DNA of 34,707 bases from Gammaproteobacteria bacterium. Lineage in GTDB: Bacteria; Pseudomonadota; Gammaproteobacteria; Pseudomonadales; Azotimanducaceae. Of this stretch, positions 17,554 to 19,710 are shown one piece after another. Location of the stretch: positions 1-34,707 of the forward strand of contig VXSY01000218.1 of NCBI GenBank assembly GCA_009837725.1, given 5' to 3'. Position 1 is the stretch's first letter; the number at the start of each line of letters is the position of its first letter. The notes beneath the pieces were generated by a model. It saw only the letters and a program-made list of their open reading frames with translations. It had not been told where the DNA came from and did no database searches. A program made the position numbers and the translations under genes.

Positions 17554-17757
17554 ATGGTCAATTCCAACGAAGGACTCGAACAAAGGGTTGCGGCCATTGA
17601 AGCCACTCTCGAACACTTGGCCACCAAGGCGGACATTGAAAGCGTCAAAGCGCTCATTGCGGAGCGCGAGACGACCATGCTTCGTTGGCTGATGGGCATG
17701 GTGGCCGCCAGCGCCCTCGCGGTGACGATCGCGCTTGTGCGCACGTTCATGGGCTGA
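17554..17757 (+). CDS. small coiled-coil plus single C-terminal TM protein (67 aa), DUF1640-like appearance
   Basis: MVNSNEGLEQRVAAIEATLEHLATKADIESVKALIAERETTMLRWLMGMVAASALAVTIALVRTFMG; GGAG upstream of the ATG. Confidence 0.7.
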   Translation: MVNSNEGLEQRVAAIEATLEHLATKADIESVKALIAERETTMLRWLMGMVAASALAVTIALVRTFMG

Positions 17758-17773: not shown

Positions 17774-17801
17774 TTGCACGCCGTCTGGCGTTCTGTATAG
17801 T
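17774..17801 (+). promoter_or_regulatory. putative leu leader/leuA promoter TTGCAC-N16-TATAGT
   Basis: -35 17774-17779, -10 17796-17801 (preceded by TG), 43 nt before the leader ORF start. Confidence 0.65.
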
Positions 17802-17844
17802 GCGTCTCCGACTTTGGCCAACCGGACTCAAAAGACCACTCGCC

Positions 17845-17910
17845 ATGAACGCCCGCGGTCCGCATACGCGCCCGACACGCACACTTCTGCTCCTGCTCCT
17901 GCCGGCGTAG
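17845..17910 (+). CDS. leuL: putative leucine leader peptide MNARGPHTRPTRTLLLLLLPA*
   Basis: 21 codons with six consecutive Leu codons (CTT CTG CTC CTG CTC CTG at 17884-17901), located between the promoter and leuA. Confidence 0.75.
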   Translation: MNARGPHTRPTRTLLLLLLPA

Positions 17911-17915
17911 CCGGC
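17901..17915 (+). promoter_or_regulatory. hairpin GCCGGC-GTA-GCCGGC overlapping the leader stop codon
   Basis: Perfect 6-bp stem with GTA loop, immediately after the Leu codon run. Confidence 0.5.
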
Positions 17916-18000
17916 AACGTTCATTTGACAGGGCCGCAATAGCCCATCCGCCCCAAAGACCTTTCAAGCCCCTAGGTCTCGCGAAGTTGGTGTGTGTCCA

Positions 18001-19710
18001 ATGACTGTGAATCCGCAAGCGTTCCCGTCTGGCAGCCGCAAGGGTGCCATGCCGTTCGAGAAATACCGCTCCTTCGAGCCGGTTGCCCTGCCTGATCGAG
18101 CGTGGCCCGAACGCGTGCTCGACGCTCCGCCGCGCTGGTGCAGCGTCGATCTGCGCGACGGCAACCAGGCCCTGATCGATCCCATGAACGTGGACGAGAA
18201 GCTCAGCATGTTCGAGCTCCTGCTCGACATCGGCTTCGTCGAGATCGAAGCCGGCTTCCCCGCTGCGTCGCAGCCGGACTTCGACTTCATTCGCAAGATC
18301 ATCGACGACGGGCTCCTGCCGGACAACGTTGCGCTGCAAGTGCTTTGCCAGGCGCGGCCGGAACTCATTGCCCGCACCGTGGAGGCGCTTGAAGGTGCGC
18401 CCAATGCGATCTTCCACCTCTACAACTCCACCTCCACGCTGCAGCGGCGCGTCGTATTCGACCTGGACCGGGCCGGCATCGTGGACCTTGCCGTGCGCGG
18501 CACGCAGGTGGTGCGCGAGGGGGTCGCCGCGCTCAAGGACACGGAAGTCACGTTCGAGTATTCGCCGGAGAGCTTCACCGGCACTGAGCTCGACTTCGCC
18601 GTGGACATCTGCGACGCCGTGGCGAACGAGTGGGGCGCCACGGCCGAGTCGCCCATCATCGTCAACCTGCCTTCCACGGTGGAAATGGCGACGCCCAACA
18701 TCTATGCAGACCAGATCGAGTGGTTCTGCCGCAACTTCCCGGAGCGGGAGCGCATCGTCGTCAGCCTGCACACGCACAACGACCGCGGCACCGGCGTCGC
18801 GGCCACCGAACTCGCGTTGATGGCGGGCGCCGAGCGGGTGGAAGGCACGCTGTTCGGCAACGGCGAACGCACCGGCAACTGCGACATCGTCACGGTGGCG
18901 ATGAATCTCTTCTCCCAAGGGGTGGACCCGGAACTGGACCTGCGCGACATGCCGCGCATCCGCCGCACCGTGGAGGCCATCAACAAGCTGCCGGTGCATG
19001 AGCGTCACCCCTATGCAGGAGATCTGGTCTTCACCGCCTTCTCCGGCTCGCACCAGGACGCCATCCGCAAGGGCATGGCGCGACTTGACGAGTCACGCTG
19101 GGAGGTGCCCTACCTCCCGATCGATCCGGCCGATGTGGGCTCGTCCTACAAGGAAGCGGTACGGGTCAACAGCCAGTCGGGCAAGGGCGGCGTGGGATTC
19201 GTGCTTGAGGAGCACTATTCCATTGCCTTGCCGCGCGAGATGCTGGTGGAGTTCTCCAAGGTGGTACAGGCGCTCACCGAACGCCTGGACCGCGAGGTGC
19301 GGGCGGAAGAGATCTTCGATGCGCTCTTGGCGGAATACGTCGTCAGTGATGGCCCCTATCGCTTGATCGACTACGACCTTGCGAGAGCGGAAGACGATGG
19401 CCAGCGCTGCACCGCTCGGCTGGAGGTTCCGGACGGCGAAGTGGCAATCTCCGGCGTCGGTTCCGGCCCCATCGAAGCTTTCGTCAACGGCATGGTGACG
19501 ACGCTGAACGAGCCGCTCAACATCATTGACTACTCCGAACGGTCGATGGCCACGGGCAAGGATGCGAGCGCCATTTGCATCGTCACTGTCGCCGGTGATG
19601 ACGACTCCGTCTCGTTCGGCATCGGCGTGAGCCAGAACACGATCACGGCATCCTTCGGCGCGATCGTTTCCGCGGTGAACCGCCGCTGGCGGGGGGCGCG
19701 GGGGGACTAG
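18001..19710 (+). CDS. leuA: 2-isopropylmalate synthase, long form
   Basis: WCSVDLRDGNQALIDPMNVDEKLSMFELLLDIGFVEIEAGFPAASQPDFDF, HTHNDRGTGVAATELALMAGAERVEGTLFGNGERTGN; C-terminal regulatory domain. Confidence 0.97.
   Translation: MTVNPQAFPSGSRKGAMPFEKYRSFEPVALPDRAWPERVLDAPPRWCSVDLRDGNQALIDPMNVDEKLSMFELLLDIGFVEIEAGFPAASQPDFDFIRKIIDDGLLPDNVALQVLCQARPELIARTVEALEGAPNAIFHLYNSTSTLQRRVVFDLDRAGIVDLAVRGTQVVREGVAALKDTEVTFEYSPESFTGTELDFAVDICDAVANEWGATAESPIIVNLPSTVEMATPNIYADQIEWFCRNFPERERIVVSLHTHNDRGTGVAATELALMAGAERVEGTLFGNGERTGNCDIVTVAMNLFSQGVDPELDLRDMPRIRRTVEAINKLPVHERHPYAGDLVFTAFSGSHQDAIRKGMARLDESRWEVPYLPIDPADVGSSYKEAVRVNSQSGKGGVGFVLEEHYSIALPREMLVEFSKVVQALTERLDREVRAEEIFDALLAEYVVSDGPYRLIDYDLARAEDDGQRCTARLEVPDGEVAISGVGSGPIEAFVNGMVTTLNEPLNIIDYSERSMATGKDASAICIVTVAGDDDSVSFGIGVSQNTITASFGAIVSAVNRRWRGARGD

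Follow-up and report, generated by a model that had tools for sequence, protein, structure and literature searches.

Amino-acid attenuation is a textbook mechanism, and the attenuators of proteobacteria were reportedly the subject of a comparative study by Vitreschak et al. in 2004. The locus described here raises a particular question about this kind of regulation: how would leuA be switched by a leucine-rich leader peptide if no hairpin followed by a U-tract lies between the two? The locus comes from a gammaproteobacterium of the family Azotimanducaceae and was analyzed within a window of 34,707 nt (the whole stretch of contig VXSY01000218.1 under study), together with leuA loci drawn both from genome collections and from relatives of the host, which are referred to below by L numbers.

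The leuA locus and its upstream region

The region contains, in this order, a promoter, a leader ORF, two hairpins (P1 and P2) and leuA, and P1 and P2 recur before leuA across the host family. Its features are the following:

17774..17801, plus strand: promoter, TTGCAC (17774-17779), 16 nt and TATAGT (17796-17801), read from the sequence
17845..17910, plus strand: leader ORF MNARGPHTRPTRTLLLLLLPA of 21 codons, stop UAG at 17908-17910; Leu-rich leaders stand at the same place in relatives
17884..17901, plus strand: six consecutive Leu codons (CTT CTG CTC CTG CTC CTG), the presumed sensor, from the in-frame Leu enrichment among 90 leaders
17900..17916, plus strand: hairpin P1, TGCCGGC-GTA-GCCGGCA, a perfect 7-bp stem containing the leader stop codon; conserved, with some compensatory changes
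17917..17930, plus strand: single-stranded, G-poor spacer separating P1 from P2, from a positional profile; 15-19 nt in total in relatives
17931..17945, plus strand: hairpin P2, GGGC-CGCAATA-GCCC; stem found sequence by sequence in relatives
17946..17982, plus strand: stretch rich in C and poor in G that precedes the leuA ribosome site; candidate Rho loading region on the basis of its composition
17957..17979, plus strand: inverted repeat AGACCT/AGGTCT, named in a preliminary description of the locus; clade-specific and probably outside the mechanism
18001..19710, plus strand: leuA, 2-isopropylmalate synthase, the controlled gene (NF002991, E 1.6e-240; TIGR00970, E 8.9e-218); start in agreement with relatives

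The promoter, the 21-codon ORF, the hairpin on its stop and the spacing to leuA had all been proposed in the preliminary description, and each of them was found where it had been placed. A -10 box of the TATAGT type also lies upstream of the leader in the majority of relatives; the promoter of the window was not flagged by a general promoter scan, and transcription is expected to start near 17808. The 2-isopropylmalate synthase encoded by leuA belongs to the PRK03739/leuA_yeast type, and the gene starts 90 nt past the leader stop. An alternative start further downstream (18049, where AAGGG precedes ATG) was rejected because relatives retain both the N-terminal extension and the start at 18001. 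An ORF of 67 aa (17554-17757, plus strand), which has a hydrophobic C-terminal segment and is weakly CCDC90-like (Pfam E 0.023, below the cut-off), stands between purT and leuA.

Distribution of the element

A covariance model of the element finds a single significant match in the host genome, which is the window site itself (E 9.3e-13; the next at 0.02). With E up to 0.01, the model matches 126 of 207 genomes of the host family and 27 of its 37 genera; the E-values of a custom model are rough, and a few of the weakest matches may be due to chance. The gene directly downstream is leuA in 40 of the 41 match loci fetched, the remaining one being at a contig edge, and the six weak matches obtained elsewhere in the host order are never beside leuA. 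Two genomes have a second copy of leuA (G005:C71, L216; G219:C10, L217), and in both cases this copy has a leader and a P1 of its own; L199-L205, mostly from genus g8 of the family, show no recognizable Leu leader or P1 before leuA.

Searches of the window against Rfam gave no match at the gathering threshold, the leucine leader included, and the sole match near the leader region was an unrelated one with an E of 1.2. No earlier description of the element was found in the open literature, a scope outside which most subscription papers fall. Taken at the level of sequence comparison, the element is a real and family-wide variant of leucine leader-peptide attenuation, and apparently an undescribed one.

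A leucine-rich leader peptide

The idea that a leader peptide with Leu codons controls leuA had been put forward from the window alone, with conservation of the Leu run in the leuA 5′ regions of relatives as a check. Leu-rich leaders do recur: among the leaders of 90 relatives, which are not independent of each other, Leu takes up, on average, 4.44 of the eight codons that precede P1 in the reading frame of the leader, and 0.18 and 0.87 in the two alternative frames. This in-frame bias of the sequences is far above chance and supports the proposed control across the family. The Leu codons of the leaders are a mixture of synonyms, with CTA more frequent there (0.17) than in leuA (0.04).

No Shine-Dalgarno sequence is visible for the leader ORF of the window. 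In 24 of 76 relatives an in-frame ATG or GTG stands 5-11 nt past the -10 box, against 6 and 1 relatives for the remaining frames, and leaderless leader ORFs are therefore predicted for roughly one relative in three (L013, L015, L021, L090, L096, L099 and L118, among others). These predicted leaders recall the leaderless trpL of Sinorhizobium meliloti (PMC10117765), from which the window differs, as its own leader starts 43 nt past the -10 box.

A hairpin on the leader stop codon

The hairpin that had been noted on the leader stop is confirmed across the family and is longer than first described, with a stem of 7 bp. If the second outermost pair of P1 is taken as number 1, pairs 1-5 are standard in every one of the 57 main-type relatives, with compensatory replacements of G-C by A-U in L095 and of C-G by U-A in L099 and L011, and a stem rebuilt as ACTGGC/GCCAGT in L104; the loop ranges from 3 to 6 nt. 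The leader stop, nearly always UAG, falls 6 nt into the P1 region in 44 of the 57 main-type relatives, and in 44 of the 57 the 3′ arm of P1 is outside the coding frame. In the remaining 13 the stop lies 9-24 nt further downstream and P1 is still present, so that the stop does not by itself account for P1. Compensatory events are few, and the sequence evidence for P1 consists mainly in the conservation of its non-coding 3′ arm. The fold of the whole leader of the window, taken alone, is unremarkable against shuffles (z -0.83); the signal is thus comparative rather than energetic, and the case rests on the relatives.

The RNA between P1 and leuA

The preliminary description is silent on P2, on the conserved G-free spacer and on conservation across the family. 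Right after P1 the RNA is nearly free of G (at most 0.05 at positions 2-8 of the profile of relatives), and T reaches 0.28-0.49 at positions 2-10, going down later to about 0.1. P2 follows 15-19 nt past P1, with a GGGC/GCCC stem in most relatives and other pairs in the rest: GCGC/GCGC in L011, GGGAC/GTCCC in L022 and L106, GGTGC/GCACC in L105, and further variants such as GGGGCC/GGCCCC. The covariance-model alignment did not recover P2, being out of register there (56.9% paired, covariation not above shuffles), and for this reason P2 rests on a script that locates the stem in each sequence.

In the 70 nt that follow P1, the family means of C and G are 0.36 and 0.19, and the median relative stands at the 3rd percentile of C-minus-G when the background consists of windows of the same loci (the window and the leuA loci of relatives). 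The bias of C over G is in the top 5% of windows in 35 of 57 relatives and is borderline in the window itself (p 0.052), and enrichment in Y-C dimers is weak (family median at the 10th percentile). Past P2, about 30-50 nt after P1, C lies between 0.40 and 0.47 and G is near 0.1. The distance from P1 to leuA goes from 68 to about 190 nt among relatives. As for the AGACCT/AGGTCT repeat, it is indeed present in the window, but it is limited to L082-L084 and absent from other relatives of the same genus, and as a regulatory stem it was rejected.

Terminators and alternative pairings

The absence of a hairpin-plus-U-tract terminator between leader and leuA, remarked upon at the outset, holds both in the window and as a feature of the family. 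The tail that follows P1 in the window, ACGTTCATTT, scores 0.87, far below the 2.67-5.51 of the real terminators in five more distant leuA leaders. Conventional terminators of this kind stand upstream of distant leuA genes of the same type (L039, L058, L059, L065, L077); terminator and terminator-free forms therefore coexist in one leuA family.

A mutually exclusive antiterminator was sought as well, and the P1 loop and 3′ arm are no more complementary to the downstream RNA than chance would make them (mean z -0.24 and 0.55). The P1 3′ arm, the Leu run and the segment before it are likewise at or near chance against the spacer, P2 and the leuA ribosome site; the strongest alternative pairing joins the Leu run to the spacer and P2 (mean z -0.60), and complementarity to the ribosome site gives mean z values of -0.11 to -0.34 for the Leu run and -0.38 for the pre-Leu segment.

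A structural variant in sister genera and more distant leaders

Where leuA is more divergent (about 60% identity), most of the family genomes sampled have CTGCCGTTGTAGGCGGCC across the leader stop and, 9-11 nt later, CCTACA or CCTGCA (L179-L198, L027, L029, L033, L064; e.g., L179:297-343). The core of this variant is nearly invariant over 24 relatives. The pairings GCCG:CGGC and UGUAGG:CCUACA would form a compact H-type pseudoknot, which probably holds the stop codon in these sister genera; all 6 of 6 pairs are found in 18 of 19 distinct sequences, compared with 23.5% of shuffled regions, and sequence changes are confined to one side, as the 5′ side is coding and does not vary. Many of the genera without the P1-P2 form have this variant, with the stop codon inside the probable pseudoknot.

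In L043, L044, L048, L051 and L070 (Steroidobacteraceae and similar), a Leu run is followed by a hairpin on the stop codon, for example TGCGCC-GCTA-GGCGCA, and a stem of the CGGTC...GACCG type lies downstream of the stop hairpin in L036, L037, L044, L051 and L070. The leuA leader of the actinobacterium Nonomuraea gerenzanensis (L124:820-945), MLRGLLLSCRGGGL, shows GGCCU-CUA-AGGCC over its UAA stop, and its stretch of Leu codons is complementary to the leuA Shine-Dalgarno sequence GAGGAGC.

How the leader may control leuA

With no terminator, leuA must be switched in some other way. We propose that the element is a cis-acting, ribosome-mediated attenuator of leuA, in which the Leu run of the 21-residue leader would sense charged Leu tRNA and the output would pass through Rho; for this reading as a whole, we find the chances evenly balanced. 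The Leu-sensing role of the leader is by itself very probable. Rho-dependent attenuation, which the preliminary description had already suggested, is the best fit for the output, and we put it slightly below an even chance.

When leucine is plentiful, ribosomes would complete the leader and be released at the UAG within P1, after which P1 would close and the G-free, C-rich RNA up to leuA would be left bare; Rho would load there and end transcription before leuA or early within it. When leucine is scarce, a ribosome would wait on the Leu codons that touch P1, keeping P1 open, and this waiting ribosome, together with the first one on leuA, would leave too little free RNA for Rho, so that leuA would be transcribed. 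Rho needs bare RNA rich in C and poor in G, and tnaC is a precedent for Rho-dependent attenuation. This output is favored because the bare RNA past P1 suits Rho and a waiting ribosome would shorten it. Against it stand the distances from P1 to leuA, which in some relatives suit a fixed spacing poorly, the strong conservation of P1 and P2, which is not explained by Rho simply binding bare RNA, and the borderline bias of C over G in the window along with the weak Y-C enrichment. An objection to attenuation itself may be drawn by analogy from the LEU element, the actinobacterial counterpart, where codon changes did not behave as classical attenuation predicts (PMC1262725).

Rho is one of several conceivable outputs. 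Translational attenuation, for which ermC is a precedent and which may also operate in the actinobacterial LEU element, would have the leader RNA mask the leuA ribosome site unless a ribosome stalls at the Leu codons. The missing terminator would agree with it, as would L008, where the Shine-Dalgarno sequence of leuA, CAGCAGGAG, is perfectly complementary to the Leu codons CTCCTGCTG (partly so in L009 and L006), and masking of the leader raises predicted accessibility by >0.1 in 17 of 57 relatives. However, complementarity between Leu run and ribosome site is at chance family-wide, as given above, and masking the leader up to the 5′ arm of P1 lowers the predicted accessibility of the ribosome site in the window (from 0.32 to 0.19) and also in L083 and L084, while the family means barely move (0.37 to 0.42). 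Folding with a ribosome stalled on the Leu codons, a check that had been advised, thus gives no rise in predicted accessibility. Nor did the specific pairing once suggested as a means of translational control, ACACGCACAC/GTGTGTGTCC, survive comparison: GTGTGTGTCC is present in the window, but in the nearest relatives (L083 and L084, with 98-99% identity in LeuA) the leuA half is retained and the leader half is not, and the pairing was rejected. Translational attenuation therefore seems rather unlikely. It is also doubtful, and decidedly so, that P1 works as a weak intrinsic terminator or pause hairpin, whose 5′ arm would be blocked by a ribosome on the adjacent Leu codons, letting the polymerase pass. 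The raised U content right after P1 makes this a serious rival all the same: a stable GC hairpin precedes a G-free, moderately U-containing stretch, the mean tail score is 1.40 versus 0.77 in shuffled sequences, and terminator-like sites occur in 17 of 61 relatives where 1.75 are expected, most of them at P1, which a tool scan flags in the window too. What speaks against it is the low tail score of the window, together with consensus tails that are mixtures of A, C and U, not U-tracts.

A further reading makes P1 or the pseudoknot variant the binding site of a trans-acting protein, as an RNA site or a DNA operator, with the Leu-rich ORF being secondary. In its favor, P1 is a palindrome with few flaws, the core of the pseudoknot variant is almost invariant, and a protein was suggested in the case of the LEU element (PMC1262725); the strong in-frame Leu enrichment stands against this reading and makes it very unlikely. 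A DNA operator in particular is disfavored, because the loop of P1 varies in length and its stem is rebuilt (L104, L095), unlike the operator of a dimer. Coincidence, that is, a chance Leu run within a GC-rich intergenic stretch, would fit the unexceptional fold of the single sequence, but it is refuted by conservation, with the element at the same gene in 27 of 37 genera and the Leu codons enriched in frame, and retains hardly any probability.

Relation to known leader systems

The leuL attenuator (leuABCD of Escherichia coli and Salmonella; Shewanella, PMC2659441) likewise has a short leader with a Leu run before leuA and a first hairpin that overlaps the leader, and the charging of Leu-tRNA, which leuL senses, would be sensed here as well. 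In contrast to leuL, the element of the window has no intrinsic terminator, a mutually exclusive antiterminator was not found in it, the first hairpin has the leader stop in its loop and arm, and leuA is of the PRK03739/leuA_yeast type. The element of the window also resembles the LEU element found before leuA in actinobacteria (Seliverstov et al. 2005, PMC1262725), in which a base stem joins the Leu codons and the leuA Shine-Dalgarno sequence and a conserved pseudoknot is also listed as a feature. Both share a Leu-run leader, structured RNA and the lack of a terminator, and the one actinobacterial leuA examined, from Nonomuraea (L124), encodes a LeuA of the same type with 54% identity. The base stem, however, is not conserved in the present family (mean z -0.34 and -0.11) and is clear only in L008; as to the pseudoknot, the form of the window is a simple hairpin, and the probable pseudoknot of the sister genera shows one-sided changes only.

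With tnaC and uORFs acting through Rho, such as toiL, the element shares a leader ORF without terminator and C-rich RNA past the stop; stalling on a uORF modulates Rho loading or Rho-dependent termination in published cases, toiL among them (PMC12121999). C-rich, G-poor RNA after the leader, as in tnaC, is found family-wide and at borderline level in the window. The signal would be a different one, since tnaC arrests its nascent peptide in response to tryptophan, whereas here starvation would be felt at the Leu codons.

These comparisons lead us to suggest, tentatively and as less probable than the contrary, that leuA genes of the PRK03739 type would be served by a separate class of leucine attenuators that have no terminator, in which a structure on the stop codon would make the position of the ribosome readable and the output would go through Rho. 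The class would comprise the hairpin of the window's group, the pseudoknot of sister genera, and similar hairpins in Steroidobacteraceae-type leaders and one actinobacterial leader. Some GC-rich bacteria have Leu-run leaders without a terminator, and how these act has been a question ever since the 2005 description of the LEU element. The family offers a large comparative set that separates the leader, the structure on the stop codon and the downstream RNA, and within it the hairpin and the pseudoknot amount to a natural experiment. One series of reporters would make the output of such leaders, whether Rho, translation or a protein, directly testable.
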